In this document: in pieces, positions 1-21,609 of the stretch | How positions within the stretch are numbered: position 1 is the first letter of the stretch | Layout of the letters: each line of letters starts with the position of its first letter | Source: a virus | IMG/VR virus record: IMGVR_UViG_3300037961_003817 | Span: 10,345-32,150 of that record | Strand: one strand, 5' to 3' | Length of the DNA: 21,806 bases | Position numbers and translations under genes: made by a program | The notes under the pieces: model-generated | Told to the model about the DNA's origin: nothing | The model's database searches: none | What the model saw: the letters and a program-made list of their open reading frames with translations, nothing else

Positions 1-987
1 AATGCGCCTGTTGAATCTAAAGAAGAAGAAAAGCCGATAATAGAAGAAGTAGTAGAAGAACCTGAAAAGGAAGAAGAAGTTATTGAAATCGGTGAAAAAA
101 TGGTACAAGAATCTAACAGACCAACAGCTGTTATATCTGATGAAGTACCAAAAGAAAATATACCTACGTTACCAGAAAACATTGTTAAAGTTGTAGACTT
201 TATGAATGAAACTGGTGGAACATTAGAAGATTATGTAAGATTAAATCATGATTATTCAAACGTAGACAATGATACTTTATTAAAAGAGTATTATAAGCAA
301 ACGAAATCACATTTAAATTCTGAAGAAATTAACTTTTTAATTGAAGATAATTTTTCTTGGGATGAGGATGTAGATGAACCGCGAGAAGTGCGTAAAGCAC
401 AACTTGCATATAAAGAAGAGGTTGCAAAAGCTAAACAGCATTTGGAAGGTTTGAAAAACCAATATTACCAGGAAATTAAGTTAAGACCTGGGGTTACTCA
501 AGAACAACAAAAAGCTATGGACTTTTTCAATCGCTACAATGAAGAACAGAAAATAGCAGAACAGCAACATGAAGCGTTCAAATCTAACACTAAAGAGTAT
601 TTTGGTCCCGAGTTCAAAGGTTTTGATTTTTCGGTAGGAGAAAAAAAGTTTAGATATGGAATTAAAAACGTTAATGATGTAGCTGATAATCAATCAAATA
701 TTTCCAACACCATTAAGAAGTTCTTAGACAAGGAAGGAAATGTTACAGACGTAAAAGGTTATCATAAAGCTATGTATGCTGCTAATAATGCTGATACTAT
801 AGCGCAACATTTTTATGAGCAAGGCAAAGCCGATGCAATTAAAGATTTAAGTGCAAAATCTAAAAATATAAATACAGAACCTAGAACAAGTAATCCAGGT
901 GATGTATTTGTTGGAGGATTAAAAGTTAAGTCAATTAGTGGTATGGATTCTTCAAAACTTAAAATTAAAACACGTAAATTTAACTAA
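1..987 (+). CDS. Putative head scaffolding / head-assembly protein, 5' end outside the window
   Basis: The frame is open from base 1 with no stop, so 328 residues are visible and the true start lies upstream; the ATG at 100 is probably internal. The first 33 visible residues are extremely acidic (about 14 Glu), followed by helical, charged segments rich in Glu, Lys and Gln (around visible residues 120-195) that look like coiled coil. The C-terminus ends in a short basic tail after an SSKLKIK stretch. An acidic, mostly helical protein with a basic C-terminal tail directly before the capsid gene is what scaffolding proteins look like (T7 gp9, P22 gp8 as general models), but no diagnostic motif is seen. 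It lies 15 bp before the capsid gene and is surely co-transcribed with it. From memory it resembles conserved proteins at this position in uncultured marine phages. It could instead be a minor head protein. Confidence 0.6.
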   Translation, partial: NAPVESKEEEKPIIEEVVEEPEKEEEVIEIGEKMVQESNRPTAVISDEVPKENIPTLPENIVKVVDFMNETGGTLEDYVRLNHDYSNVDNDTLLKEYYKQTKSHLNSEEINFLIEDNFSWDEDVDEPREVRKAQLAYKEEVAKAKQHLEGLKNQYYQEIKLRPGVTQEQQKAMDFFNRYNEEQKIAEQQHEAFKSNTKEYFGPEFKGFDFSVGEKKFRYGIKNVNDVADNQSNISNTIKKFLDKEGNVTDVKGYHKAMYAANNADTIAQHFYEQGKADAIKDLSAKSKNINTEPRTSNPGDVFVGGLKVKSISGMDSSKLKIKTRKFN

Positions 988-3423: not shown

Positions 3424-4356
3424 ATGGCAATAAACGTAAACACTGTATATCAAACCGTTTTATTAATACTAAACAAAGAACAAAGAGGTTATATGACACC
3501 TTTGGAATTTAATAAAATAGGTGCTCAATCACAACTAGAAATATTTGAAACATATTTTGATAGTTTAAATCAGCAGTTACGTGTACCGCAAGCAAACACA
3601 GATTACGCTGATAGAGTCGTAAATCTTGATGAAAAAATCTCTATATTCAAAGATTATGGAAACGCTACATCAGTATCTTCAAGTAACGTTTTTAACTTAC
3701 CTACTCAATATTCAGGAACTTCTTCCGCAACACAACAATTTACAGCTGTGAACCCTGGTTTAGCATATACGCTAACTGGAGATGCTTTAGCATTATCTAA
3801 TGCCGGTGCTATTACAAATGTTTTTGTAAATGGCGTTGAATTAGCATCAACAGCATATACTTTAAGCGGGGCAACACTAACATTAAGTAGTCAACCAACT
3901 GCTGGCCAAATTATAATTATAAATCTTTATCCAAAAGAATTTTATAGATTAGGTCAAGTATTATATCAAGTAGGTGCTTTACCAACGGAAGAATTACAAA
4001 GAGTTGATCGAGGTGAATTATATCATTTATTAAGTTCTAACTTAACCAAACCTACTACTACCAATCCTATTTATACATACGAAAATAATCAGCTTACAGT
4101 TTATCCCACTAGTATAACTAGCGGATTATCAACAAGTTATATAAGAAAACCTATACCCCCTATTTGGGCTTTTACTTCAGGATCTCAATATGTATTTCAA
4201 CCAACTTCATCTTGTAATTTTGAATTACACTCTAGTGAGCAAGTAGAATTAATAACAAGAATATTATTATATGCTGGGGTTGTAATTAAAAATCAAGAAG
4301 TAATACAAGTTGCCGCTTCTCAAATTCAACAAGAAAATATAAATCAAAAAAGTTAA
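3424..4356 (+). CDS. Putative head-tail adaptor / tail-tube protein with an inserted beta domain
   Basis: This 310-residue protein has a helical N-terminal part (INVNTVYQTVLLILNKEQRG, residues 3-22; a YMTPLEFNKIGAQSQLEIFE stretch after it) and a C-terminal part with FYRLGQVLYQVG near 173-184, IYTYENNQLTVYPTSI near 216-231 and a final helical segment SSEQVELITRILLYAGVVIK. I recall this N- and C-terminal pair as a conserved family located after the capsid genes of marine phages; position suggests a role like tail tubular protein A or a head-tail adaptor. Between residues about 95 and 171 lies an Ala/Thr/Ser-rich beta stretch containing VFVNGVEL (133-140), which looks like an added phage fibre-type domain. 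The next gene begins 6 bp after the stop. Family assignment is from memory; the molecular role is inferred from position. Confidence 0.65.
   Translation: MAINVNTVYQTVLLILNKEQRGYMTPLEFNKIGAQSQLEIFETYFDSLNQQLRVPQANTDYADRVVNLDEKISIFKDYGNATSVSSSNVFNLPTQYSGTSSATQQFTAVNPGLAYTLTGDALALSNAGAITNVFVNGVELASTAYTLSGATLTLSSQPTAGQIIIINLYPKEFYRLGQVLYQVGALPTEELQRVDRGELYHLLSSNLTKPTTTNPIYTYENNQLTVYPTSITSGLSTSYIRKPIPPIWAFTSGSQYVFQPTSSCNFELHSSEQVELITRILLYAGVVIKNQEVIQVAASQIQQENINQKS
3706..3936 (+). other. Inserted fibre-type beta domain inside the head-tail protein
   Basis: This segment encodes residues 95-171 of the host gene. It is rich in Ala, Thr and Ser and contains the pattern FVNGVEL, a short YTL turn, LTLSSQPTAG and a final IIIINLY strand, typical of small beta domains in phage fibre and adhesin proteins. 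The sequence on each side (FNLPT before, EFYRLGQVLYQ after) reads as a continuous conserved core, which suggests an insertion. Confidence 0.5.
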
Positions 4357-4362
4357 TAAATT

Positions 4363-5787
4363 ATGCCTATACCTAATGGTGGTTTAATCACCGAAACTAA
4401 CAGACAATATTACGCAGGTGCAGAACAATTTTCTATCACAAGTACAGGTGTTGGTCAAACTTTTACTAGCACATTTGAAACTAATTTAACTTTTGGTAGT
4501 TCTGATCCTTCAGCAACAGGTTATGGTTTAAATAACTTTAAAGTTTATACAAGCCCTGATGCAAATACATGGACTGAGCTAACGCCAACGTCGGCTGTGT
4601 CTTCAACTACAGGTAAGAATACAGCAGCGGTTGTAAATACAGGCAACCCAAGAGCTTTACCTTTAACAGTAACTAATCCAAATGTTTTAAAAGACATGAC
4701 TGTTGTAAACGCTTCTACAGGTGCAGTTTATGGAACTGTTTTAATAGATCTTCCTGTTGGGAATACTAATGTAACCTGTAATATAACAACTCAAATTCCT
4801 CCATCTACAGATTTAAGGTTTCAATTTGCAAATCCTTGGAGTGAAGCAAATAATATAGTAACAGTAAACGCTAGTTTAACATCCGGTAATTATCTTAAAA
4901 TTCAAATGAATGAAGATACATTATGGGATATGCACGGAAGTTATGAATATACTAAATTAGATGATATTATTAATAATTTTTTAATAGCTTATGTAGGACC
5001 TGGGAAATTAATACCTAGTGTAAAAAGAACAGATGTTATATTTCATGCAAAACGTGGACTACAAGAATTTAGTTATGATACATTAAAGAGTGTAAGATCA
5101 CAAGAATTAACTGTTCCACAAAGTTTATCTCTTGTAATACCTCAAGATTATGTTAATTACGTAAGACTTTCTTATATAGATAATATGGGTGTACAGCATA
5201 CGATATTCCCAGCTAATGAATTAACATTGAGACCTTATGCTACACCTACACAAGACAATGATGGTTTACCTACTCAAGATGCTAATAATTCCAATATAGA
5301 TGGTACATCTCAAACTACAGAAAAATGGGATGCTAATAACCCAAGAAAAATTAGTGGTGCTTATATCAATGATTATTCTATTGCTGATGTTTACTGGACA
5401 AGTTATTATGATGGGGCTTTAGGTCAAAGATATGGATTAAATCCTGAAACAAGTCAAAGAAACGGTTGGTTTATAATTGATGATAGAAAAGGTTTGTTTG
5501 GGTTTTCAAGCAATTTAAAAGAAAAATTAATAATATTAGAATATATATCAGATGGTAATGCTTATGATTTAGATTTAAGAATACCTAAGATGGCAGAAGA
5601 AGCTTTATATGCCCATATATTATATTCTATATTATCTACAAGTGTAGGAATACAAGAATACATCGTTCAAAGATTTAAAAGAGAACGAAGCGCTAAATTA
5701 AGAAATGCTAAAATTAGATTATCTAATATTAAACTTGATCAAATAGTTCAAGTAATGAGGAATAAATCTAAGTGGATTAAATACTAA
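4363..5787 (+). CDS. Putative tail-tube / head-tail connector protein with N-terminal beta domains
   Basis: This 474-residue protein has two parts. Residues 1-185 are Ser/Thr/Asn-rich and beta-type; residues from about 186 on, starting at LWDMHGSYEYTKLDDIINNF, are a mixed helical/beta core with VGPGKLIPSVKRTDVIFHAK, GLQEFSYDTLKS and LVIPQDYVNYVRLSYIDN stretches and a basic C-terminal helix rich in Arg and Lys. I recall the core as conserved in marine phages, next to the preceding gene's family, so a joint role in the head-tail junction or tail tube is likely but unproved. The N-terminal beta part seems to be interrupted by another small domain (residues 99-156). The stop codon is only 2 bp before the next start, implying coupled expression with the giant tail protein. 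The start is the first ATG after the upstream stop and gives a typical A/T-rich leader. Confidence 0.65.
   Translation: MPIPNGGLITETNRQYYAGAEQFSITSTGVGQTFTSTFETNLTFGSSDPSATGYGLNNFKVYTSPDANTWTELTPTSAVSSTTGKNTAAVVNTGNPRALPLTVTNPNVLKDMTVVNASTGAVYGTVLIDLPVGNTNVTCNITTQIPPSTDLRFQFANPWSEANNIVTVNASLTSGNYLKIQMNEDTLWDMHGSYEYTKLDDIINNFLIAYVGPGKLIPSVKRTDVIFHAKRGLQEFSYDTLKSVRSQELTVPQSLSLVIPQDYVNYVRLSYIDNMGVQHTIFPANELTLRPYATPTQDNDGLPTQDANNSNIDGTSQTTEKWDANNPRKISGAYINDYSIADVYWTSYYDGALGQRYGLNPETSQRNGWFIIDDRKGLFGFSSNLKEKLIILEYISDGNAYDLDLRIPKMAEEALYAHILYSILSTSVGIQEYIVQRFKRERSAKLRNAKIRLSNIKLDQIVQVMRNKSKWIKY
4657..4830 (+). other. Ig-like beta module nested in the N-terminal domain of the 474-residue protein
   Basis: Residues 99-156 of the host protein. 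The pattern LTVTNPNVLKDMTVV, then GAV, then NTNVTCN and a final TDLRFQFA resembles residues 183-245 of the next gene's product (LTLAQSNTNIKKGMLVV, GAV, GTTVTLN, TDTVKFLA). It lies between the strands FKVYTSPDANTWTEL (59-73) and NNIVTVNASLTSGNYLKIQM (163-182), which together look like one fibre-type domain. Confidence 0.45.
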
Positions 5788-5789
5788 AT

Positions 5790-8700
5790 ATGGCTGAAAT
5801 TAAAAATAGTTTCTTAAAGTCCAAGATGAATAAAGACTTGGATGATAGACTAATACCTAATGGTGAATATCGTGATGCGCAGAATATATCTGTAGGTAAA
5901 TCAGAATCTGATGATATAGGTGCTTTAGAAAACGTATTAGGTAATACTTTAGTTCCAGGAACTGATTTAGGAAATGCTAATTTAGAAGTTATTGGCTATT
6001 TTGCTGATGATAACAATAGTACTATATATTTATTTTTAACAGACAATACTAATCATTATATATATAAATATTTTAATAATACTTATACAAAATTAGTTGA
6101 AGGTAGTTTTTTAAACTTTAGTAAAAATAATGTAATTACAGGTGTTAATTTAGTAGAAAATTTATTATTTTGGACTGATAATTTAAATCAACCAAGAAAA
6201 ATAAATGTTACAAAGTCTTTAGGTTATTATACTAAAGAAAATCAAATATCAGTTGCTAAATACAATCCTTATAAAGCTTTAACATTATTAAAAACTGTTG
6301 AAGTAACAGGTGCTACTTGTCCTCCATCAACAACATTAACTTTAGCTCAATCAAATACTAATATTAAAAAAGGTATGTTGGTTGTAGCTACCACGAATGC
6401 TGGTGCTGTTAAAATTGCAGCTTCAGAATATTTATATGTAAGCAATATATCAGGCACTACAGTAACTTTAAATGCTGCCCCTGCTTCTGCTGTTATAGCT
6501 ACTGATACAGTTAAGTTTTTAGCAACAACAATGACAGGTAAAGATATTACTTATGATTTTAATGGTGGTGTTGATTGGCCAGGTGATCCAGATTTTTTAG
6601 AAGATTTATTTGTAAGGTTTAGCTATAGATTTAAATTTGATGACGAAGAATATTCATTAATGGCTCCTTTTAGTCAACCTGCTTTTATTCCACAACAAAA
6701 AGGTTATTTTTTAGAGGACAATGAAAATGCTGCTTATAGAAGTACTATTCTAGATTTTATGCAAAATGGTGTGCAAAATGTAGAATTAATAATACCATTA
6801 CCAGACTCACAAAATAAATTAGGGGATCAAGCCGCTGATACATATAAAATAACTGAAATAGATATATTATATAAAGAATCTGATGGAAGAGCAGTCAAAG
6901 TATTAGATACAATTCAAACAAATACTTTTGATGTTAATTCAACTTTAACTACTTATACATATGATTATCAATCAAGAAAACCTTATAAAACACTTCCTGA
7001 AAGACAGACAGTAAGGGTATATGATAGAGTGCCTGTTAGGGCCTTAGCCCAAGAGGTATCTGGAAACAGGGTAATATATGGTAATTTTCAAAGTCAACAT
7101 ACTCCGCCTGCTTCGATAGACTATAATGTGGGTGCTAATGCAAAAAGTACAACATCCTTTGAAACATGGGCAGAATATCCTAATCATACATTAAAACAAA
7201 ATAGAAATTATCAAGTTGGTTTTATTTTAGCTGATAAATTTGGAAGACAATCATCAGTAATTTTGTCTTCAGTAGATGATGGCAGAAGTTTAGGTGGAAC
7301 ATTTTTTGGTGGTTCAACTTTTTATCACCCATATAGATCAAGTACACAAAACTTGAAAGAATGGTGGGGTGATGCATTAAAAGTTGTAATTAATAGTTCT
7401 ATTACGAGTGTTAAAAATCTTAATACAGGTGTGCCTGGTTTATATGCTGACGCTATATCAAATGGTTTTAACACAACAGGTGTTGCTACAACAATAAATA
7501 ATAACACTTATACTTTTACTTTAAATGGTGGTGATACTAGCGGTATACCTGTAACTAACTCATATTTAAGAGGTGAATATACTGATTTTGTAAAAGTAAC
7601 AAATGTTACTGGTGGACCAGCTTATACTGTTACCACAGATGGTGAAATAAACAATGAGTTATATTTATCAAACTTAAATAATCCAGATATAAAGTTTGCA
7701 TATAATCTTAACAATCCTTTAGGTTGGTATTCCTATAAAATAGTTGTTAAACAACAAGAACAAGATTATTATAACTGTTATTTTCCAGGATTTTTAGATG
7801 GCTATCCTGGTCAAAGTAGTGTAACATTCCCTACTAATGAAGATGGTAAAACAGGACATGTTGTATTATTAAATGATAATATTAATAAAGTTCCTCGAGA
7901 CTTATCAGAAGTAGGGCCAGAGCAAAAACAATTTAGGAGCTCAGTAAGATTATATGGTAGAGTAAATAATACAGTTGCAGATAATGTACAGTTTTTCCCT
8001 GTAAATGTTAGTGGTACTCAAGTATTGCCTTTAGCTATGACTGCAGATACTATAGCTGACGCTGATGATTTAAAAATGGCAACAAGTGAAATAACTACGC
8101 CTACTAATTTTTATCAATTAGATACAAATCCTTTAATAGCTAGATTAGCAACATTAAACTCAGGAACTACTACAATAGGAATAACAGACGCTACAATGGT
8201 TCCACAACTATCTGTAGCTGAAACTGAACCTACAGAATCAGCATTACAGTTATTTTATGAAACATCTACAACAGGCTTAATAGCAGATTTAAATGCAGAT
8301 GTAGAGACTGGTTTTGATGGTGTTGCTGGGTTATCAGCTTTATCATATTCACAAAATGAGAATATGGCTGCCAGTACAGATTTAACTGGTGTATTTCACC
8401 CGCAAAATAATCAAGGCAGTAATTTTGCTAATACAGATATTTCGAGTGTAAACATGGTTGTTAAAGATGGTACTGATGCAACTAGAACAGCAGAGTTTAA
8501 TTTAATAACTTCAGGAACAGGATATAAATTACAAACAGCAAATAATCAATTTGTTTTTAGAGATGATAGTTCTACAAAAGATGTATATACTTTTTCATTT
8601 ACATTTACAACAAATGCTGGTGATACTAGTACTGTAACAGCTGCAGGATCTTTAGGTAATATTGCTCCTGAGTTTACTGCTGGTGGAAGTTTACCAGATG

Positions 8701-9989
8701 TAACAGTCGCTGTAGATGCCGGAAATTCTGTAAATAGTCCAATAGTTACAAGAGATGGTAATAATGGCTCTAATAGTAATAATGCGGATGATTTGTTATA
8801 TAGTATAACTGCTGGTAATACTAATAATTATTTTAGTATAGAATCTACAACAGGTAAAATTTGGAAATCTAGTAATACTCCTATTGGAGTTTACACTTTA
8901 ACGTTAAAAATAGATGATGCAGTTCTTAATGGTGTTCCACAAACAGGTAGTTTAAATGTAACTAAAACTCAAGAAATAACTGTTGGGGCAACAGCTGTTA
9001 ATGCTGGCATAAAATCAACATGTAGAAATGTTGGAAGTGCCGGGAATGCCGCTACAAATCAATTATCAGCACCTATAAATGGTTCTGCGGTTACTGGTGT
9101 TTGGTATCTTAGTGACAGTACTTTAGCTTCTAATGATTTACCAATAACGCCAACGGCTGCTCAAGCAGGGTTTTCACAAGGTGGAGGATTTAAAATAGGT
9201 AGTGCATTATCACAAGGAACAGTAGTGTTCCAATGTATCATCCAGCAGGCTTTTACGAGTAATGGTGGAGATGCTTTCTTTACTAATACAGAAGGTGGTG
9301 TAACTTGGAAAGTTTATTATAGAGACCCAAATGGAGCTAATACTTGGAATCAAATCGCGGATATAAATAACTTTGATCAAAATCCGGTAGCTGCTACAGG
9401 TATTCTTACTAATAATACATTAGATGCGGCAGACGCAGTTGGTAAACAAGCTTCTGTAGCTTTTGCTTTTGATGAAGTGGGTGAATATGCTGTATGTGCT
9501 ACGGAATTAGTAACTAATCAAGCCCAAGTTAATGCAGATGCTATTTGTGCATGGGTAAACTCTAATGATTTATATTACAGTGATTGTGTAATTGAAAACG
9601 CAGTTAATGTCCCGGATAGTGGAACACCTAAGGCTTATAAATATGATGTATCAGCTACTCAAACATCTTATGGATGTGTTGCGACAACTTCTACACATTA
9701 TTATGCACCAATACCTTATGCTCAATATGTAGATTTATTTTATAGTAATGTTGGTTTAACAACACCTGTAGAGCCTGCTTCTAGCGAGTTTAGAACATTT
9801 AATACGGATACTGCAACAAGTGAGCCTTTTGATCATATTAAAGTATCAGCTAAGTTTGGTACAGATGGAATAAAAATAGCTCCAACTATAAGTGAAAAAG
9901 TTTGTAATTCAGGTGCATATGCAGTTGCTTGTCAAGGTGGATTTAGTACTTGTGCACAACCAATGCCAGGTGCAACCGGCTGGGTGTAA
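5790..9989 (+). CDS. Giant tail protein: propeller-like N-terminal part, Ig-like and cadherin-like domains, Cys-rich end
   Basis: This is a 1399-residue structural tail protein. The N-terminus (AEIKNSFLKSKMNKDLDDRL, with GEYRDAQNIS and ENVLGN) and LLFWTDNLNQPRKINV near 125-140 suggest a beta-propeller-type tail hub like the P22 gp10 or crAss-phage muzzle class; this is by resemblance only. An Ig-like insert occupies about 183-245. A conserved RFSYRFKFDDEEYS stretch follows near 275-289, then NPLGWYSYKIVVKQ and RDLSEVGPEQKQFRSSVRLY blocks near 643 and 706-725. FYETSTTGLIADLN starts at about 822. Residues 956-1065 look cadherin-like (NIAPEF, then YFSIESTTGKI, then GVYTLTLKIDDA). From about 1079 to the end there are nine cysteines, an unusual density for this cluster, with no recognised domain. 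The distal half probably forms an exposed, variable, host-facing part. The gene ends in four consecutive stop codons. Confidence 0.75.
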   Translation: MAEIKNSFLKSKMNKDLDDRLIPNGEYRDAQNISVGKSESDDIGALENVLGNTLVPGTDLGNANLEVIGYFADDNNSTIYLFLTDNTNHYIYKYFNNTYTKLVEGSFLNFSKNNVITGVNLVENLLFWTDNLNQPRKINVTKSLGYYTKENQISVAKYNPYKALTLLKTVEVTGATCPPSTTLTLAQSNTNIKKGMLVVATTNAGAVKIAASEYLYVSNISGTTVTLNAAPASAVIATDTVKFLATTMTGKDITYDFNGGVDWPGDPDFLEDLFVRFSYRFKFDDEEYSLMAPFSQPAFIPQQKGYFLEDNENAAYRSTILDFMQNGVQNVELIIPLPDSQNKLGDQAADTYKITEIDILYKESDGRAVKVLDTIQTNTFDVNSTLTTYTYDYQSRKPYKTLPERQTVRVYDRVPVRALAQEVSGNRVIYGNFQSQHTPPASIDYNVGANAKSTTSFETWAEYPNHTLKQNRNYQVGFILADKFGRQSSVILSSVDDGRSLGGTFFGGSTFYHPYRSSTQNLKEWWGDALKVVINSSITSVKNLNTGVPGLYADAISNGFNTTGVATTINNNTYTFTLNGGDTSGIPVTNSYLRGEYTDFVKVTNVTGGPAYTVTTDGEINNELYLSNLNNPDIKFAYNLNNPLGWYSYKIVVKQQEQDYYNCYFPGFLDGYPGQSSVTFPTNEDGKTGHVVLLNDNINKVPRDLSEVGPEQKQFRSSVRLYGRVNNTVADNVQFFPVNVSGTQVLPLAMTADTIADADDLKMATSEITTPTNFYQLDTNPLIARLATLNSGTTTIGITDATMVPQLSVAETEPTESALQLFYETSTTGLIADLNADVETGFDGVAGLSALSYSQNENMAASTDLTGVFHPQNNQGSNFANTDISSVNMVVKDGTDATRTAEFNLITSGTGYKLQTANNQFVFRDDSSTKDVYTFSFTFTTNAGDTSTVTAAGSLGNIAPEFTAGGSLPDVTVAVDAGNSVNSPIVTRDGNNGSNSNNADDLLYSITAGNTNNYFSIESTTGKIWKSSNTPIGVYTLTLKIDDAVLNGVPQTGSLNVTKTQEITVGATAVNAGIKSTCRNVGSAGNAATNQLSAPINGSAVTGVWYLSDSTLASNDLPITPTAAQAGFSQGGGFKIGSALSQGTVVFQCIIQQAFTSNGGDAFFTNTEGGVTWKVYYRDPNGANTWNQIADINNFDQNPVAATGILTNNTLDAADAVGKQASVAFAFDEVGEYAVCATELVTNQAQVNADAICAWVNSNDLYYSDCVIENAVNVPDSGTPKAYKYDVSATQTSYGCVATTSTHYYAPIPYAQYVDLFYSNVGLTTPVEPASSEFRTFNTDTATSEPFDHIKVSAKFGTDGIKIAPTISEKVCNSGAYAVACQGGFSTCAQPMPGATGWV
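6336..6524 (+). other. Ig-like beta module inserted in the giant tail protein
   Basis: Residues 183-245 of the host protein, between AKYNPYKAL and DWPGDPDFLEDLFVRFSYRF, two segments that I recall as close neighbours in related phage proteins. The module has the pattern of small Ig-like phage domains: TLTLAQSNTNIKKGMLVV, then YLYVSNISGTTVTLNAAP and a final TDTVKFLA. It resembles the module in the preceding gene (residues 99-156 of that protein). Confidence 0.5.
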
Positions 9990-10021: not shown

Positions 10022-11344
10022 ATGGCTGCTACATTAGAATTAAAATATTTTAACTCATATTGGTTGAAGAAATTATCTAATGTTGTGGATGCAAATCCGC
10101 AACCTACGGCACCTTATGCAAATGTACCACAAGCATATAATAATGATAATACTAATGACTGGTATATTGAAGAGGCTAGGATTAGGGGCGGTTATAATAA
10201 TACTATTACTGATTTAGGTGTAAAAGCACATATTGTTGAAGATAATCCTAATAATCAAAATAGATTTAATACAATGATTTATTCAGGTGTATTTAACTCT
10301 AGAACAGGCATAAACCAAACAAATGAATTTTCAGTAGGTGAAGATATAACAAGATCAGTAGATCCTGCAAAAGGATCGATACAAAAGTTATATGCAGAAG
10401 ATACAAATTTAATTATTTTCCAAGAAGACAAAATTAATAGAGCTTTAATAGACAAAGATGCTATATACTCTGCAGAAGGTAATCCAGCAGTTACATCTTC
10501 TAATGTTGTCATAGGTCAAATAGTTCCTTATCAAGGAGAATACGGTATATCAACCGACCCTACAAGTTTTGCTATATATGGTTATAGAAAATACTTTACG
10601 GATAGAAAAAGAGGTTGTGTACTTAGATTATCAAGCGCTGGAGAAATTATAGAAGTATCTGGTTATGGTATGCATGATTTCTTTAGAGATAACTTAACAT
10701 CTACGGCTGTTACTAAAGTTGTAGGTGGATGGGATATGCACACTAAAAACTATATTCTATCTATACAAACAGCATCAAGTTATAATACTTTATCGTTTGA
10801 TGAAAGTGTACAAGGTTGGACTAGTAGATTAACATATAAACCATCTTGGATATTTAGTTTATCATCTACGTTTTTTACAACTAATACAGGTAAATTATAT
10901 CAACATTATGGATCTGCACCTTACTGTAGTTTTTATGGAACAGTTTCAGATTCAACAGTAACGGTAGTTTTAAATGCTAAACCATCAACGGTTAAAGTAT
11001 TTCAAACAATAAATTATGAAGGTAGTGGAGATTGGACAGTAAGTTCTCTTGACGCCAGCTCAGGTGATGTGGCTTTGGTTCCAGTTTCTAAATATATACT
11101 ACCAACATCATTAACAGATTTTTCTAATGAACTATTTACTAATAGTTTTAAAAGAAAAGAAAATAAATATTTTGCAAATATACTTAATAACTCTTCTGCT
11201 ACAGCAGGAGAAGTAATATTTGGAAACAATATGACTGGTATTAAAGGATTCTTTAGTACAGTTAAGTTTAGTTTAAGTAACGCAGCAAATGAAAGAAAAG
11301 AATTATTTGCAGTATCTAGTGATACTGTAGAGTCATCATATTAA
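10022..11344 (+). CDS. Conserved tail structural protein, partner of the giant tail protein
   Basis: This 440-residue protein contains blocks I recall from the C-terminal part of very large tail proteins in other phages: GVFNSRTGINQTNEFSVGED near residue 90-109, SIQKLYAEDTNLIIFQEDKI near 120-139, YGYRKYFTDRKRGCVLRLSS near 187-206, GYGMHDFFRDNL near 215-226 and GGWDMHTKNYILSIQT near 238-253. The C-terminus ends GIKGFFSTVKFSLSN, then KELFAVSSDTVESSY, also a recalled family signature. The protein is beta-rich with Trp- and Tyr-containing repeats and probably completes the propeller or tail tip built by the upstream product. It starts 32 bp after that gene, with no Shine-Dalgarno sequence. Whether the two were once one gene is an inference. 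An independent tail knob or fibre-anchor role cannot be excluded. Confidence 0.7.
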   Translation: MAATLELKYFNSYWLKKLSNVVDANPQPTAPYANVPQAYNNDNTNDWYIEEARIRGGYNNTITDLGVKAHIVEDNPNNQNRFNTMIYSGVFNSRTGINQTNEFSVGEDITRSVDPAKGSIQKLYAEDTNLIIFQEDKINRALIDKDAIYSAEGNPAVTSSNVVIGQIVPYQGEYGISTDPTSFAIYGYRKYFTDRKRGCVLRLSSAGEIIEVSGYGMHDFFRDNLTSTAVTKVVGGWDMHTKNYILSIQTASSYNTLSFDESVQGWTSRLTYKPSWIFSLSSTFFTTNTGKLYQHYGSAPYCSFYGTVSDSTVTVVLNAKPSTVKVFQTINYEGSGDWTVSSLDASSGDVALVPVSKYILPTSLTDFSNELFTNSFKRKENKYFANILNNSSATAGEVIFGNNMTGIKGFFSTVKFSLSNAANERKELFAVSSDTVESSY

Positions 11345-13167: not shown

Positions 13168-16100
13168 ATGTCAGACTTTAATTTTCAAACTCCCTGTGAA
13201 GACCAAAATCTTACATCAGAAGAGTTAAAAAAATGTCAGCAAGAATATAAAAAATATCTAGCTAGAGAAAAAGCAGAAAAACGTTTTAGATTACAGCTTA
13301 AAAACACTGGGGGAAATAGATCTAAAAGCGCAGAATATGCGTTTAAAAAAAGACAAGAAGAAATTGATACTGATGGCGATGGAAATATAACTGCAGAGGA
13401 AACATCTAATTTTTATGATAGTCAAACAGGTGGTACAGCTTTAGTAGACGGATATCTTAATATTAAAAATATATACAACAGCGGTGAAAAAGATAATGAT
13501 ATAAGCAAAGGTATTTATGGAGATATAGAAAAAATATATAAATCAAGACAAAAAAATAGACCTTTTAAAGAAGATATAAATATACAGCAAAGGAAGAATA
13601 AATATGAAAATTTTGCTGAAGCATTAACGGATGATTTTTTAGAAATATGGAAACAGCAAGAAGGATATGAAGATAGGTACGCTTATAAAACATTAGGTTT
13701 AGGTAATGAATCAAGAGAAAAAAGTGGTTATAATAAAGCTTTAAAAATATGGCAAGAACAACAACAGCAAGTTTCCAATAATGAAATAGCTTCTATATAT
13801 GGTGAAGAAGTACTACAAAATTTTCTAAAAGGTTCTTATACTACTGGAGAATTTGGCTCTATGAAAACTGTTAAAGGTTTAGATATAAGCTTATTAGACC
13901 AAAAAAAAATAGATGCCAAAAGAAATGAATTAATATTAGAGGAAACTAAATTATTATTAGACCCAACCGGAGAAAGAGATTTAGACCCAGTATTGATGCC
14001 GGCTTTGGAAAAATATTTATATACTGATAAAGATAGGAATAAAGATGGCTTACTTCCTAATGAAGCTATTGTAAAACACAATACAGAGGAAAGGTTAAGA
14101 TTTATGGAGCTTGGATGTGGCGGATCTAGTCTTGCTGATTCAATACCATTAGGAAAAGAAATAACTTTAAATTGTAGAGGCAAGGAGCATACTTTTAAAT
14201 TAAAAGAATTTCAATCAAAAGAAGAAATTTATGAAACATTCCAAGAAGGACAACAGCAACTAAAAGAAAGATCTGAAGCTTTAAGTAAAGAAATTACTAA
14301 AGCTCAATCAGATGCTGCCCCGCTTTTAAAAACAGTAAATGATTTAAAAACTAAATTAGAAAACTATGGAGAAATAACTCCCCTTACTTCTCCAAGAACT
14401 AGATGGGCTTATCAACAAGATGTTAAAGATTATCAAAACGCAATTGAAGCTTATAATGGTAGTGAAGCTGGTAAAGAATTAGAGCGTTTAGCTGGGCGAA
14501 CAAATTTATTAAATGCTGAATATGATGCATTAGAAGCTGAAGGTGTAAAGCTAGATGATTATGGTATTTTATTAGAAGCGGGAAGTTTAAATTATAACTT
14601 GCTTGATAAAACTTTTGCAACGTTAAATGCTCAGTTTGTAGCGCCCGTGCAAGCATTAGTAGGGAGTATAGATAATGCCTTAGGTAAGTTATTTGATAAA
14701 GACTATAGTGACGCTAATTTAAAAAGCTCTATGAATTATTATAAAATGGCTCAAGAAGACATGGCTAATTTTGCAACATTTGGTAGTGATCATTTTGGAT
14801 TAGATGGTTTTGGGTTTGGAAGATACTTATTAAATTTAGCAGCTGACAATAGTTTTAGTATTGGAGCTACTTTATTGCCAGGAGGTTTTATTGGTGGTTT
14901 AGGCGGCAGGCTTTTAGCTAGAAATTTAACAGGCGCTGCACAAAAAGCTGCTTTCGCAACAGCTAATAAAATGGCACAAAGTGCAACTATGGCTACATTT
15001 TTTGTTAGTGGATCTGGAGATCAATGGGGTAAACTAACCTTAGCTAGCATGCAAGCAGATGAAAAACTAGCCGAAATCAATAAAGACTTGCTTAATGAAG
15101 AGCTTACACCTGAAATGAAAGAGCAATTAATGAGTGATAAGCAGTTTTATGAAAGTCAGAAAAACTTAAAATATGGTGGAGCGCAAAGAGCATTTGCTGC
15201 TATACTATATGGCGGTATGGACATGATTGGGGAAAGATTAGGATCATTAAGAGTTATAAGTAATTTACAAAAAGTAGGTAGTTCATATGCTAGACAAGGT
15301 ATACTTAAGTCTTGGAGAAAAAGCCAGATAGAGGGTATTAAAGCTACATTAACATCAGGTTATAGATTTGGGGCTGGTATAGGATCAGAATTGTTAGAAG
15401 AATCTTTTGTAAATCTTGGTACAGCTTTTGTTGATAGAAATATACTAGGTATTGATACAGGTTATTTAGACGGCTTTTCTACAGACTTTGCATTAAATAC
15501 AGCATTTACTAGTATAGCATTACAAAGTCCTTATATGGCAAATAATGTTATGAGTGGCGTTAGATACGAATTAATGTCTAATGCTGATAGAAAAGCTATG
15601 AGAAAAATCCATGGTGACTTAATGAGTATAACTACAAAACTTGAAAATGGTAAGTTAGATGGTAGTTTATCTAGTGCAGAAATAAAAGAATTACAAGACC
15701 AAAAACAAGATTTATTTGAGCAAGCTACGGTTTCAGATTTTTTAAGTATGAACTCTTGGACCAAACTTGATCAAAAGTCTAGAAACCAATTAATTGAAAT
15801 AGGTAGTGAATTAAGAGCTGCTGAAAAAGATTTATATTCTTTAACTAGTGATCCACAATTTGGTCAAGAAGGATTTTTAGAAGAAGTTACAGCTGCAGAA
15901 AAAAGGGTAGAAAAAATTGATGCAAAAAAAGCTGAACTATTAAAATCTAAAAAATTATCAGAATATAATCAAGCAGAAGCAGATTTTTTAAAGGCTAACC
16001 CGGATGCACAATTAGCTAATAGCACGGTAGCTAAAGCAAGAGTTCAAGTATATGAAGCAGCATTAGATATAGCGGGTTTTCAATATGACGGAACAACAGA

Positions 16101-19100
16101 TGTTTTAACAGATCCTGAATCTGTTGAAGCATTTATAGAGCAAAACAAAGATAGATTAAGTGATAAAGATATTGAAGGTATTAGAAATGAATCTGCATTT
16201 GTAGACCCTGCTACCGGTAATTTAGTAGTTAATCAACAAAATATTTATGAGTCTATAATGACGGGAACCACGTCACAAGCTTTAACAGCCGCTATTGCGC
16301 CGTTACATGAATTAATGCATGCTCAAATAAAAGCAACTAAATTATTCGATGCAAAAAATAGTCCTGAGCTACAAGAAAATATAAATACAGCCACAATAGG
16401 TTTAACCGATGTTCTAAAGTCTAAAATGGAGGACGGTTCATTAGATTCTAAAAGAGGACAAGAATTATTAGATAGAATAGATCAATATGATAAATCTAAT
16501 ATAGAAGAAGTTATGACAGTATTTAGTGAAGCTCTTTTATTAGGTGATATAAAAGGAGCTGATATGAATGCAATGTACGGTTTAAAAAATATGTTAAATT
16601 CAGTATGGGGACAATTTAATCCTACTGCTTCTAATGTTTTAAACCCTTTTAAAACTACAAATGATATATATTCTTTTGTAACTGACTTTGCTCAAAAAAC
16701 AGCAAATATACAAAGTGATAAAGTCCAACAAGTCTACACAATGGACTCTACTGGAAGAACTAAGTATGAATCAGGTTTAGTATTTTCAAAAGGAGACGCC
16801 CAAGAACAAGGTCAAAAGGTTATACCTCCTCAATATGATATAGATAGAATTGAAACAAATCTTGAATTAAATAAAGAAGTTGGTAATGTTTTTGTAAGAG
16901 AAAATAATAGAAAAGATTTAGAGGCAGAATTAGCAAGAGCTAAAGAGGTACAAAGAATGATTGACGAACGTAGCCCTGATGAGTTAAGACAAGAACTTGA
17001 ACTTGCAAAAGATATTGGTAATGTTTTTTCAAGAAAAAGAGTAACAGATGATATAAAGTATGCTTTAGAAGCTATAACACTTGATAGAAGAGGTCCAGAT
17101 ATAGATCCATTAACAGGTGACCCAAAACCTACTCAAGCGCCAAAAGGAATTGCTTTTTCTATAAATCCAACAAAAATTGCAGAAAATTTAGCTGGAAAAG
17201 GTTTAGAAGTATCTGAAAAGCAAATAAATGATATGGTAGGTAAAATTGCATCAAGAGCAACTACTAAATTTTGGTCTAGAATGAGCGCGTCTAATCAAAA
17301 TATTGTACCTAGAAAATTATATAAAGACAGTGCTAAAAATTTATTACTTGAAATAGCAAATAATTATAGAAGAGAAGTATCTAAAAACACAGGTAAACAA
17401 GTTACCTTTGATGCATACATGGCCAACACTGGTATGCAAAGATTAAACAGTCTTGCTGCAGATTTAGGCGCTAAACAAAAAGACGATAAAAGCTTAAGCG
17501 ATGAAGCAACATTAAGAAAAGCAGAGCAAAAGCAACAAACAACTGAAGAAACAACTGTTGCAAAACCTGGAGTTACACCTACTACTGAAATATTTGACGT
17601 AATAAAAAGTATAAATCCAGATATTAATGTTAAAGATTTTGAAAAGAAATTTACTGAAGCAGCTTTAGCTAATGCTAAAAAACAAGGTTTAAATATATCA
17701 GATCCTAATTTAACACCAAAACAGAGAGCTAAAATAACACCTTATGATGTATTAGCTGAAGCATTGGGTATTGATCCAAAAAAGATATCTAATCCTGCAC
17801 AAAATTTAAATCAAGATGCTAAAAAAGTACAAAGGTTTTTATTTAAAGCTAGTCAGTTAATTAAAACAGCTGTATTAAGTAAAGCATATACAGACGTACA
17901 AACGGTAGCATCAAAAGTAAAAGGTGGTAAACCTGTAAAGGTTGGTGGTACAACACTTGGTTATGGTAAAGATTTATTAAATGAATTTTTTAATGAACCA
18001 AAAAGATTAGGAAGTGGAAAATATGTAAGGTCTCCTAAACAATGGAGTAAAGCTAGATATGAACAAGCTATAGGTATTAAAGACGGCAAAATAGACCCTA
18101 ATTATGTTGCTAGAAAAGAACAAGAGCAAATGATGAAAGCTATGCTAAAAGCATTAGCTGAGCAAATGGCTTTAAGAGCTACAAGTAGAGTTTTAGATAC
18201 AAAAGCTCCAACTAAAGAAATTACTCTTACTCAAGCCCAGCTAGACTCTATGAAAAGCCCATTGTTATTTAGCAAAGCTCCATCAAATATAAAAACTAAA
18301 ATACCTAAGTTTAAAAAAGATGCTAATGGTAAAAAACAATATAAAGAGTTTTTACAACAAAAATTATTTCCATTATTTCCAAAAAGTTTCTTTTTACAAG
18401 GAGGAGATAGCGCTTTACAATTTTTAGAAAGCAAATTCCAATATTTTAGTAAAAAAGAAATTGATGCTATAATAAAAGAACAAGGTAATAATTTTGGAAA
18501 ACCTTTCCCTAAAGGTGTAAATCTTAAGTATATAAATAAAAGATATAACCAAATATTTCCAAAAGGTTGGGATTCAATGTTAGAAATGCACAATTCTGGT
18601 GATCTTAAAGCAATGAATGACAGCAACTCGAAATTGGGTAAGGTAATGTGGGGTAGAATTTATAAAGCAATAAGAACTGCTGTTGATGCAAATGATCAAA
18701 ATTTTTTACAAGGCTTACAAAGCTATATGGCAGGAGTTGGAAGTATAGATAATCACCCTTTAAAAATGATAGCGCCTGTAGTAGGTGGAACGTTTGGTTA
18801 TCAAAAAGGAAAGGAAAATGTAACATATGAGCATGCTAGACCTGCCACCGATACTTATAATGTATTAGTAAATGCCGCTATAGCTTATAAAAGCAAAACA
18901 AGTTTTGATAAAGTATATAATGAAATGATGAAAAATTATAAAGTTATAGCTTTATCTAAAGTAGATGCTGAAAAAGTTGATGCTGTTTATAAATTAAAAA
19001 TGCCTGAAGGAGTAACAGAATGGTTTAGAAGATATGCCAATCCAAAAGTTGCTTTAGAAAATGGGGGTGTTGATGTAAACAATTTGTATTTATTTGATCA

Positions 19101-21609
19101 AGGCAAAGTATTTTCTGATGCTTTCAATATGGATGCCGCAGGTAAACCTTTAACTAAAGAAGGTAAAGTTGTTGCTAAAGCTGCTACAAAAAAATATAAA
19201 ACATTAGACAATGGTTTAAAATTTTCATTAAGTCCAAAAGGCAAAAAAGCTATTGATAATTTAAAAAATAATCAACCTGAAGGTTTAAGTAAAGATTTTA
19301 ATGATATAATAGAACAAAACAAAGGTATTAAATCTGAAGCAAGATTTTCAGAAATTGTTGCTAAGCGAAGAGGTAGAGGTAAAGGCAGGTTTAGATTTTT
19401 TATACCGCCTGGTGCAGAAGACTTTAAAGGATTATTATATAACTTTTTAGGTAAAGGTCGAAAAGGAGAACAACAATGGCAGTTTTTGGATAAAAATCTA
19501 TTAAAACCTTATTGGCAAGCTATATCTCAAATAGAAAGAGCCAGAAGAGCCTTAAAAGGAGATTATTCAACATTATTGAAAGGTATGCCTGCGGCTAGAA
19601 AAAAATTAGGTACTAAAATACCTACAAAAGGTAAAACGGCATTTACATATGATCATGCTGTTAGAGCTTATTTAATGGATCAATCTGGTTATGATTTAGT
19701 AGCTGAGGCTGGTTTATCTAAAAGAGATGCTAAAATATTGGTTGATGCTATTGCTAAAGATCAAACAATGTTAGATTTTGCTCAAGGTTTACAAATGATA
19801 ACCAAACAAGATGTATGGGTAAAACCTACTAGTGGATTTGATATACAAACAATACAATCAGACATACATCGATTTACATCTGGAGAAGGTAGAAAAAAGT
19901 TTTTAGATAATTCTGGCTTTATGCAAAATGTTGATCAAATATTTAGCACAGAAAATTTAAGAAAAATTGAAGCTGCATATGGAACTAATTTAAGAGAAGC
20001 ACTAGAGGATACGATTTATCGTATGAAAAATGGAACAAATAGACAGTCTGGTACAAATAGATTAACAAATACATTTAATAATTGGATTAATAGATCTGTG
20101 GGGGCTATAATGTTCTTTAATAGAAAATCTGCTTTATTACAAACTATATCTTCTGTAAACTTTATAAATTGGAGTGATAATAATCCATTAAAAGCAGGTA
20201 TAGCTTTTGCAAATCAAAAACAATATTGGAAAGATTTTGCTTTTATATTTAATTCACCTAAATTAAAAGAAAGAAGAGCAGGATTAAAAGGTGATATAAA
20301 TGAAGCTGAAATTGCAGATGCTGCAAGAGGTGCTACTAATAAAGCTGAGGCTGTTTTATCATATTTATTAAAAATAGGTTTTACTCCTACTCAATTAGCA
20401 GATAGTTTTGCTATTGCTTCTGGTGGTGCAACTTTTTATAGAAATAGAATCAATACATATTTAAAACAAGGTATGAACCCACAAGCTGCAGAAAAAAAAG
20501 CTTGGCAAGATTTTTCAAGAATATCAGAAGAATCTCAGCAGTCTGCAGATCCAGCAATGATATCAGAACAACAAGCAAGCCCATTAGGTAGGTTTACATT
20601 AAACTTTCAAAATACTCCAATGCAGTATACAAGGTTAATGAAAAGAGCTGGACAAGATTTAATTAATAGAAGAAGAATACCAGGGTTAACTCAAGCACAA
20701 AGTGATGCAACATATATAAGTAAAATAATATATTATGGAGCTGTACAAAACTTTATATTTGCTGCTTTACAAAATGCATTATTTGCTGTTATACCAGGAT
20801 TTGGAGGAGAAGATGATGAAGAAGAGTTGACTAAAGAACAAATGAAAAGAAAAAAAGAACTTAGGATAGCTAATAACATGATAGACACTATATTAAGAGG
20901 TACAGGGGTTTATGGAGCTATTGCTGCGACTATTAAAAATACAGCTATTAAGTTTTATGAAAACGAACAAAAAGATCCTTTTGCTAAAGATAACGCAGAT
21001 ATACTAATAGAAGCTGCTAATTTATCACCGGTAATAGGTTCTAAACTTAGAAAATTAAACAATGCTCTAAAAACTAGAGAATTTGAAAAAGATGTTATAG
21101 AAGAAAGAGGTTGGGAAATAACTAGAGATGGTAGATTAAATTTAAGCCCTTCATACAATGTTCTAGGCTCAACTGCAGAAGCATTATTAAATATACCTTT
21201 AGAAAGAACTATAGCTGAAATAGACGCTTTAGTTGAAATGACTGATCAAAGAAACTCATCACTGGAAAGAATAGCTTTAGCCCTAGGTTGGAGAACATGG
21301 GATATTGGCATACCAAATGAAGAAGAGGATCAAATAAAAGTTGAAGTTAAAGAAAGAAAAAAACAAGAAAGAAAAGATAAATTAAAAAGAGAAAAAGAAG
21401 AAAAGAAAAGATTAGAAGAAGAAAAAAGATTTGAAGGATTATCTAATAAAGAAATAAATAACTTAAAAAGAAGAGATCAAATAGAAGCCTTAACTAAGCA
21501 ACAACAAATAGATAGTTTAATAAAATTAGGTGTAAGTAAAAAAGATATTAGAGCTTTACGCCTTGAATCAGATAGAATAGATAAAATAATAGAAATAAAT
21601 ACAAAATAA
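13168..21609 (+). CDS. Giant 2813-residue inner-virion / polyvalent protein with HExxH metallopeptidase motif
   Basis: Visible parts, in order: an EF-hand loop at 67-78 (DTDGDGNITAEE), a degenerate one at 289-300, a glutamine- and Glu-rich helical region, a Gly-rich hydrophobic stretch at about 563-585, HELMH at 1047-1051 with Glu 1113, 1114 and 1121 as possible third zinc ligands, a two-copy repeat at 1232-1300, a TYEHARPATDTYNVL stretch from 1886, a basic patch from 2066 (KRRGRGKGRFRFF), and a C-terminal region from about 2309 (RSVGAIMFFNRKSALLQTIS) to 2700 that I recall as strongly conserved in giant marine phage proteins, with a hydrophobic segment at 2522-2546. The last 90 residues are a highly charged helix. 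The HExxH motif fits the metallopeptidase domains described in phage polyvalent proteins. Position and size suggest a protein injected with the DNA, like T7 gp16. No RNA polymerase or transglycosylase motif was seen. Confidence 0.7.
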   Translation: MSDFNFQTPCEDQNLTSEELKKCQQEYKKYLAREKAEKRFRLQLKNTGGNRSKSAEYAFKKRQEEIDTDGDGNITAEETSNFYDSQTGGTALVDGYLNIKNIYNSGEKDNDISKGIYGDIEKIYKSRQKNRPFKEDINIQQRKNKYENFAEALTDDFLEIWKQQEGYEDRYAYKTLGLGNESREKSGYNKALKIWQEQQQQVSNNEIASIYGEEVLQNFLKGSYTTGEFGSMKTVKGLDISLLDQKKIDAKRNELILEETKLLLDPTGERDLDPVLMPALEKYLYTDKDRNKDGLLPNEAIVKHNTEERLRFMELGCGGSSLADSIPLGKEITLNCRGKEHTFKLKEFQSKEEIYETFQEGQQQLKERSEALSKEITKAQSDAAPLLKTVNDLKTKLENYGEITPLTSPRTRWAYQQDVKDYQNAIEAYNGSEAGKELERLAGRTNLLNAEYDALEAEGVKLDDYGILLEAGSLNYNLLDKTFATLNAQFVAPVQALVGSIDNALGKLFDKDYSDANLKSSMNYYKMAQEDMANFATFGSDHFGLDGFGFGRYLLNLAADNSFSIGATLLPGGFIGGLGGRLLARNLTGAAQKAAFATANKMAQSATMATFFVSGSGDQWGKLTLASMQADEKLAEINKDLLNEELTPEMKEQLMSDKQFYESQKNLKYGGAQRAFAAILYGGMDMIGERLGSLRVISNLQKVGSSYARQGILKSWRKSQIEGIKATLTSGYRFGAGIGSELLEESFVNLGTAFVDRNILGIDTGYLDGFSTDFALNTAFTSIALQSPYMANNVMSGVRYELMSNADRKAMRKIHGDLMSITTKLENGKLDGSLSSAEIKELQDQKQDLFEQATVSDFLSMNSWTKLDQKSRNQLIEIGSELRAAEKDLYSLTSDPQFGQEGFLEEVTAAEKRVEKIDAKKAELLKSKKLSEYNQAEADFLKANPDAQLANSTVAKARVQVYEAALDIAGFQYDGTTDVLTDPESVEAFIEQNKDRLSDKDIEGIRNESAFVDPATGNLVVNQQNIYESIMTGTTSQALTAAIAPLHELMHAQIKATKLFDAKNSPELQENINTATIGLTDVLKSKMEDGSLDSKRGQELLDRIDQYDKSNIEEVMTVFSEALLLGDIKGADMNAMYGLKNMLNSVWGQFNPTASNVLNPFKTTNDIYSFVTDFAQKTANIQSDKVQQVYTMDSTGRTKYESGLVFSKGDAQEQGQKVIPPQYDIDRIETNLELNKEVGNVFVRENNRKDLEAELARAKEVQRMIDERSPDELRQELELAKDIGNVFSRKRVTDDIKYALEAITLDRRGPDIDPLTGDPKPTQAPKGIAFSINPTKIAENLAGKGLEVSEKQINDMVGKIASRATTKFWSRMSASNQNIVPRKLYKDSAKNLLLEIANNYRREVSKNTGKQVTFDAYMANTGMQRLNSLAADLGAKQKDDKSLSDEATLRKAEQKQQTTEETTVAKPGVTPTTEIFDVIKSINPDINVKDFEKKFTEAALANAKKQGLNISDPNLTPKQRAKITPYDVLAEALGIDPKKISNPAQNLNQDAKKVQRFLFKASQLIKTAVLSKAYTDVQTVASKVKGGKPVKVGGTTLGYGKDLLNEFFNEPKRLGSGKYVRSPKQWSKARYEQAIGIKDGKIDPNYVARKEQEQMMKAMLKALAEQMALRATSRVLDTKAPTKEITLTQAQLDSMKSPLLFSKAPSNIKTKIPKFKKDANGKKQYKEFLQQKLFPLFPKSFFLQGGDSALQFLESKFQYFSKKEIDAIIKEQGNNFGKPFPKGVNLKYINKRYNQIFPKGWDSMLEMHNSGDLKAMNDSNSKLGKVMWGRIYKAIRTAVDANDQNFLQGLQSYMAGVGSIDNHPLKMIAPVVGGTFGYQKGKENVTYEHARPATDTYNVLVNAAIAYKSKTSFDKVYNEMMKNYKVIALSKVDAEKVDAVYKLKMPEGVTEWFRRYANPKVALENGGVDVNNLYLFDQGKVFSDAFNMDAAGKPLTKEGKVVAKAATKKYKTLDNGLKFSLSPKGKKAIDNLKNNQPEGLSKDFNDIIEQNKGIKSEARFSEIVAKRRGRGKGRFRFFIPPGAEDFKGLLYNFLGKGRKGEQQWQFLDKNLLKPYWQAISQIERARRALKGDYSTLLKGMPAARKKLGTKIPTKGKTAFTYDHAVRAYLMDQSGYDLVAEAGLSKRDAKILVDAIAKDQTMLDFAQGLQMITKQDVWVKPTSGFDIQTIQSDIHRFTSGEGRKKFLDNSGFMQNVDQIFSTENLRKIEAAYGTNLREALEDTIYRMKNGTNRQSGTNRLTNTFNNWINRSVGAIMFFNRKSALLQTISSVNFINWSDNNPLKAGIAFANQKQYWKDFAFIFNSPKLKERRAGLKGDINEAEIADAARGATNKAEAVLSYLLKIGFTPTQLADSFAIASGGATFYRNRINTYLKQGMNPQAAEKKAWQDFSRISEESQQSADPAMISEQQASPLGRFTLNFQNTPMQYTRLMKRAGQDLINRRRIPGLTQAQSDATYISKIIYYGAVQNFIFAALQNALFAVIPGFGGEDDEEELTKEQMKRKKELRIANNMIDTILRGTGVYGAIAATIKNTAIKFYENEQKDPFAKDNADILIEAANLSPVIGSKLRKLNNALKTREFEKDVIEERGWEITRDGRLNLSPSYNVLGSTAEALLNIPLERTIAEIDALVEMTDQRNSSLERIALALGWRTWDIGIPNEEEDQIKVEVKERKKQERKDKLKREKEEKKRLEEEKRFEGLSNKEINNLKRRDQIEALTKQQQIDSLIKLGVSKKDIRALRLESDRIDKIIEINTK
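16861..17067 (+). repeat. Two-copy protein-coding repeat within the giant gene (135-nt period)
   Basis: Residues 1232-1255 and 1277-1300 align without gaps: LELNKEVGNVFVR and LELAKDIGNVFSR start the copies, and DL and DI, then L, match further on. At DNA level GGTAATGTTTTT is shared exactly. This is an old, diverged duplication of a helical unit. Confidence 0.6.

Follow-up and report, generated by a model that had tools for sequence, protein, structure and literature searches.

The window analysed here is a 21.8-kb stretch of DNA (10345-32150 in a virus contig 32 kb long, IMG/VR record IMGVR_UViG_3300037961_003817) from a phage of an uncultured marine crAss-like lineage. Two adjacent virion genes of this phage, encoding proteins of 474 and 1399 amino acids (aa), carry small inserted modules, designated B and B', respectively, which profile comparison shows to be distantly related and to belong to a single family, ~70-85 residues in length. 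The new result with the strongest evidence is that module B of the 474-aa protein behaves as an exchangeable cassette, which has been replaced by strongly different versions. We consider it likely that the modules belong to a dispersed family of barrel insertions, which were inserted separately, are exchanged at the 474-aa site and may provide a variable contact surface.

Module exchange in the 474-aa protein

Module B lies within an inserted domain (domain A), which precedes the conserved core of the 474-aa protein (Table 1). The closest relatives of the window contig are metagenome virus contigs (compared sequences are cited by L numbers). Between the window and L007, the identity was 97-98% in domain A and 98% in the core, and 32% in module B. 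At the DNA level, the identity within the module was 42-60%, compared with 98% before it and 95-98% after it. The same pattern was found in another background, in the comparison of L001 with L013 (98% identity outside the module, 35% within it). The window and L015 represent the reverse case, with 73% identity outside the module and 91% inside. Two control segments of the core, equal in size to the module, were never less than 93% identical where the background was at least 93%. One version of the module was found in L007, L011, L013 and L021, as opposed to that of the window, L001-L006, L012, L015 and L016.

At moderate distances all of the inserted domains diverge faster than the core, as might be expected if the divergent versions had arisen by point mutation in a fast-evolving domain. 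However, the identity drops from 95-98% to 40-60% and recovers at the module borders, and diverged phages may have near-identical modules (the window and L015), which makes this explanation very improbable. Chimeric assembly, although conceivable given that the near relatives are all metagenome contigs, is hardly credible, because each version recurs in contigs of several metagenomes, always in frame with both flanks, and the pattern was repeated independently in two backgrounds.

The codons flanking module B are conserved across versions (left, WTEL..P; right, F.FA.PW), and recombination might use them as arms. In the case of module B', no clear exchange was detected in near-identical pairs, the lowest value being that of one pair with 43% identity in a background of 88-93%. 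For the insert of the neighbouring 310-aa protein, eight pairs with less than 50% identity were found in the same 88-93% band.

An insert within an insert

The homologues of the 474-aa protein were found to form several length classes. Proteins of ~285-304 aa, encoded by Cellulophaga phage phi38:1, Flavobacterium phage elemo, Maribacter phage Panino and L086, have no insert. In proteins of ~402-420 aa, domain A (~95 residues) is present without module B, and in those of ~470 aa domain A is interrupted by module B. An additional class of ~630 aa (L074, L079, L092) has an insert that is ~155 residues longer, apparently containing additional or expanded modules.

Alignment and structure model agree that module B sits inside domain A. 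Structural matches of the module cover residues 81-156. Those of domain A (9k09_U and 7y22_e) span residues 17..187 and 18..192 while aligning just 74-76 residues; since ~170 residues are spanned and only ~75 aligned, these matches are consistent with domain A being discontinuous. On a tree of the core, the presence of module B at this site requires one change, and that of domain A two.

The 474-aa protein matches phrog_13977 (E = 5.9e-36, residues 189-463), and its gene directly precedes that of the muzzle, the order being the same as for gp43-gp44 of crAss001. From this gene order, it is a candidate tail-ring or head-tail connector protein. When it was compared by hhalign with the crAss001 ring proteins gp34, gp35, gp40 and gp43 (single target sequences), all values were below 1%, and the label "ring protein" is thus a reading of gene order. 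Neither its core nor the 310-aa protein gave a match in hhalign comparisons with crAss001 proteins. The PDB was also searched by sequence, using the full 474-aa protein, the profile of its core and the 440-aa protein described below, and nothing significant was obtained.

Modules B and B' belong to one family

The original prediction, made by eye, held that residues 99-156 of the 474-aa protein (4657-4830) and 183-245 of the 1399-aa protein (6336-6524) share an ordered residue pattern, and that the same module is present in both genes. The open reading frames (ORFs; 4363-5787 and 5790-9989, respectively) and the pattern residues were as described. Pairwise comparison of the two segments by BLAST and Smith-Waterman gave no significance; the Smith-Waterman score of 41 was equalled in 5.1% of shuffles, and the best pairwise alignment of the two whole proteins falls outside the segments. 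Since one shuffle in 20 reaches the same local score, likeness of this kind is insufficient to establish relatedness.

Profiles did reveal the relationship. They were built from 41 and 69 relatives, and in hhalign modules B and B' matched at 92.8% (P = 4e-7) over ~60 collinear columns, or at 94.9% (P = 5e-8) when only reference columns were used. By comparison, the values did not exceed 7.4% for 11 control segments taken from elsewhere in these genes, or 3.7% for 200 column-shuffled profiles. A twelfth control, the domain A profile, reached 24.8% over 12 columns, which contain residues also present in the profile of module B. A profile of modules from other genomes matched both sites in the contig (6e-10 and 6e-7), as well as one further site (3e-13). 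The match between B and B' was thus above all controls, and the presence of the same module in both genes was borne out.

The modules exceed the limits given originally, extending over residues ~76-157 and ~167-250 of the two proteins. They had also been said to interrupt conserved sequence, and relatives free of the insert were indeed found at each site; in both protein families the module is thus a variable component.

The 1399-aa protein is part of a split muzzle

The 1399-aa protein had been considered a tail hub. Its N-terminus instead corresponds to residues 8-179 of crAss001 gp44 (hhalign, 95.8%, P = 7e-9) and aligns with residues 5-183 of phi38:1 gp97 (E = 3e-26), while the 440-aa protein encoded downstream aligns with residues 851-1237 of the latter (E = 1e-49). 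The muzzle is encoded by two ORFs in the window and in its relatives, and by a single one in phi38:1 and elemo. Because of the gp44 match, the presence of crAss_MUZ_C in the 440-aa protein and the fused form in phi38:1 and elemo, the 1399-aa protein was recognized as the N-terminal portion of a crAss-type muzzle that is split in this lineage. The Panino muzzle is likewise split, apparently elsewhere in the protein.

Propeller blades 2 and 3 of crAss001 gp44 are separated by an inserted Ig-like domain, IG1 (residues 163-292; PMC10172136). Module B' starts at residue 167, which is the position where IG1 begins in gp44. It is present in the marine relatives, including L086, and absent from phi38:1, elemo and Panino.

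Distribution of the module family

In the relatives, modules occupy various sites within a group of four adjacent tail genes, those of the 310-, 474-, 1399- and 440-aa proteins. In the 440-aa protein, a module following residue 251 was identified in L003, L004, L005, L015, L016, L037, L038, L049 and L074 using hidden Markov models (HMM; 3e-11 to 6e-16). This site is empty in the window, its flanks being otherwise similar to those of the module-bearing relatives. Modules were also found near the N-terminus of the 440-aa protein (L059, L063, L067), in the 310-aa gene (L012, L052, L043, L054, L059) and, in the 1399-aa gene of relatives, mid-gene and at ~900. A second module suspected in the 1399-aa protein itself (residues 560-635) was rejected: an E value of 2e-25 was obtained with an iterated HMM, whereas independent profile comparison gave 0.2-14%, pointing to drift during iteration.

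A third copy is carried by the same contig, outside the window, in a gene for a 172-aa protein near the contig start (L122:18-536, residues 54-126 of the protein). The C-terminal part of this protein weakly resembles a tail-fibre PHROG (E = 0.025). Its relatives contain this module, another one in a different loop, or both, the module in the other loop being weak in some of them. The modules had been described as paired, a view that is too narrow given this third copy and the several sites in relatives. When single modules were used as tblastn queries against a phage collection, no matches were obtained, a result probably limited by their short length and the low-complexity filter, and one of the queries was consensus-like. 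A family module was also observed near the C-terminus of an unrelated 264-aa phage protein (L111:3443-4237, near-identical in L112-L117), which starts with MAYPSVPAPYGLKPVNLIGGQVFAG.

Separate insertion of the two modules

The original prediction left it open whether the module had been copied between the two genes or acquired independently. L086 has the muzzle module and an insert-free homologue of the 474-aa protein, and phi38:1, elemo and Panino lack B'; the two insertions were therefore separate events. In a tree of the modules, they group by site and not by genome, with 8 label changes compared to an average of 60 in shuffles, although the tree has few columns and weak forks. The module of the 474-aa site is nearest to that of the 440-aa site of relatives (97.9%, P = 6e-13), followed by that of the muzzle N-site (95.0%, P = 4e-8). 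On the core tree, the module copy of the 440-aa gene requires six changes.

The occurrence of one family in neighbouring genes of a single genome might suggest direct copying from one gene to the other in this lineage. Grouping by site, the closeness of the 474-aa module to the 440-aa site and not specially to the muzzle, and the gene content of L086 all make such copying unlikely. These results point to an old dispersed family without recent transfer between the two genes.

Predicted fold

AlphaFold models were made from alignments and searched with Foldseek and VIA-align. Both segments were modelled confidently and matched the same solved domains. The two lists overlap and consist mainly of six-stranded beta-barrels, with common matches to the tail tube of phage Mystique (9n71_A, 103-180), the tail tip of phage Chi (8vjh_B, 231-311), the hub of a gene transfer agent (6tba_7A, 160-254), residues 490-567 of lambda gpJ and the N-terminal barrels of F1/V1-ATPases. 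The capsid I-domain of crAss001 (7qof_A, 79-176) was listed for the 474-aa module. For the six-stranded barrel insertion of LKA1, the P22 I-domain and V-ATPase are reported as the DALI matches (PMC5701251). A search of BFVD with the model of residues 1-200 gave weak matches, mostly to unnamed proteins.

The modules had been taken for Ig-like domains, a reading considered here for domains of the Big or FN3 type. Phage structural proteins commonly bear Ig-like accretions, the crAss001 muzzle has two Ig-like domains, and the lambda gpJ insertion (483-569), matched by both models, has been described as a beta-sandwich (PMC10721106). However, six-stranded barrels lead the structural lists for both modules. 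No match to an Ig-type Pfam family was obtained for either window segment, nor did Big_2 find any in the contig; two other members of the module alignment match Ig-fold families only weakly (E = 0.009-0.026). Ig domains were also missing from the leading structural rows, although their absence there does not exclude a Greek-key beta-sandwich. On account of the match lists and the lack of an Ig family match, the Ig-like assignment appears improbable, and a small six-stranded beta-barrel is the most likely fold according to the models. Overall, the original reading holds with regard to one family inserted in two adjacent virion genes, and not with regard to Ig-like domains, a tail hub or a pair.

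Proposed origin and role of the modules

According to the reading presented at the outset, modules would have been inserted separately into turns of virion proteins in the marine crAss-like lineage: at the junction of the propeller and the first Ig-like domain of the muzzle, inside domain A of the 474-aa protein, and in the upstream 172-aa gene. Thereafter, each site would for the most part have followed a separate line of descent. The exchange observed at the 474-aa site is attributed to recombination, perhaps using the short conserved flanks, which brings in strongly different modules and leaves the scaffold near-identical. With crAss001 as a guide, the insertion points may be outward turns, and many copies of the module may be exposed on the tail. 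Because very different versions exchange within a constant scaffold, we infer an exposed surface under diversifying pressure, which would drive the exchange. This variable surface may function in weak binding to the host surface or to particles (e.g. to cell-surface polysaccharides), in tracking changes of host, or in contacts between subunits.

An alternative with a real, if less than even, chance is that the modules are structural cement or selectively neutral decoration, and not a surface for contact with the host. For the P22 I-domain, a role in stabilising the contacts between subunits has been proposed (PMC5957328; PMC5701251), and relatives with empty sites occur in nature. Against this, the exchange of very different versions would fit an outward surface better than a fitted contact. 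A more far-reaching version of the variable-surface reading, which we put forward as tentative, is that marine crAss-like phages possess a dedicated cassette of this kind, a barrel family spread across tail and fibre genes and continually exchanged at short flanks. If this were true, tail parts besides the classical receptor-binding proteins would gain a variable surface facing the host or particles.

Several points weigh against a barrel family forming an exposed contact surface. The structural Z scores are 5-8.7 and mostly below 8 (the best being 8.7 and 7.9). Such values are no more than suggestive, as VIA-align warns that Z < 8 can reflect merely a common arrangement. The two module models were compared through common matched chains and not by direct superposition. 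The naming as barrel or sandwich is not fully settled, since PMC10721106 assigns the lambda gpJ insertion to the latter. The ring identity of the 474-aa protein is putative, and exposure and copy number are extrapolated from homology to crAss001.

Genomic context and features

Downstream of the portal gene, the window encodes, in order, a major capsid-like protein of 485 aa and proteins of 272, 310, 474, 1399 and 440 aa. This order agrees with that of the structural genes in phi38:1 and elemo and, more distantly, crAss001. The insert of the 310-aa protein is distinct from module B. It matches Pfam DUF4183 (E = 1e-4, below the cut-off), is absent in L100-L104 and bears a distant resemblance to domain A in the 474-aa protein (33.7%, P = 4e-4); some relatives add module B beside it. 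An ORF of 2813 aa is located downstream of the tail genes (13168-21609). In crAss-like phages, the giant late proteins at this location include virion cargo and RNA polymerase subunits.

Table 1. Features of the window discussed in the text (positions in the window)
Feature	Position	Strand	Evidence or remarks
Separate insert (residues 94-170) in 310-aa structural protein, not module B	3703..3933	+	DUF4183-like
474-aa virion structural protein, phrog_13977	4363..5787	+	ORF; homologues phi38:1 gp96, elemo gp23
Inserted domain A, part 1 (residues ~18-75)	4414..4587	+	AlphaFold pLDDT ~90-93 from residue 21
Module B (residues ~76-157), nested in domain A	4588..4833	+	hhalign to B' 93-95%; AlphaFold pLDDT 94-97
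Inserted domain A, part 2 (residues ~158-186)	4834..4920	+	Alignment; structural matches
Conserved core (residues 190-474)	4930..5784	+	Aligned with phi38:1, elemo, Panino, L086
Muzzle N-terminal part (residues 1-166 of 1399-aa protein)	5790..6287	+	Homology to ring-joining domain and propeller start
Module B' (residues ~167-250 of 1399-aa protein)	6288..6539	+	AlphaFold pLDDT 89-96; structural matches ~167-247
440-aa protein, C-terminal part of split muzzle	10022..11344	+	Pfam crAss_MUZ_C, E = 3.7e-10
Empty site after residue 251 of 440-aa protein	10771..10778	+	Protein alignment; DNA alignment with L003

Comparison with known systems

Domain mosaicism, RIFT-related barrels in tail and neck proteins (PMC10684548) and barrel insertion domains are already known. 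What appears new, judging from the open-access literature searched and allowing for an earlier description elsewhere, is their combination: one family in at least three virion-type genes of one contig, nesting, and the exchange of a single module in a conserved connector-like protein.

The crassvirus muzzle gp44 (PMC10172136) is matched by the 1399-aa protein in its N-terminal part and by the 440-aa protein in its C-terminal part. An Ig-like insertion is present in gp44 as well, at the corresponding position, and length variation driven by insertions is known for this protein; unlike gp44, the muzzle described here has an extra module ahead of IG1 and is encoded in two pieces. According to Fraser et al. 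(2006), as cited in PMC10721106, Ig-like phage domains are likewise small accessory virion domains of patchy occurrence; in contrast to these domains, the predicted fold of the present modules matches barrels and the window segments have no Ig family match.

The I-domains of P22 and crAss001 and the insertions in the LKA1 tailspike gp49 (283-370) and lambda gpJ (483-569) resemble the modules in their size of 70-90 residues, their location in loops of virion proteins and their overlapping structural matches, including the V-ATPase barrel. No sequence relation was detected between these insertion domains and the modules. In contrast to these insertions, the present modules form a single sequence family, which is found in several genes of the same genome, includes a nested copy and undergoes cassette exchange. 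Natural pairs of phages that differ mainly in the module permit a direct test of what such barrel insertions do, a point that had not been settled in the case of LKA1.

Receptor-binding proteins, endolysins and neck passage proteins provide the best-described examples of module exchange in phages. In their work on domain mosaicism and RIFT-related domains, Smug et al. (2023; PMC10684548) reported that unrelated phage proteins have homologous domains in common, as is also the case here, and that receptor-binding and neck passage proteins have undergone recent shuffling. The comparisons of the window with L015 and L007 likewise show the contrast in identity between one domain and the remainder that marks recent mosaicism. 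Unlike the cases in that study, exchange in the present phages affects one nested module of a conserved connector-like tail protein adjoining the muzzle, and is seen at the resolution of a single module among relatives with an empty site, one module or two.

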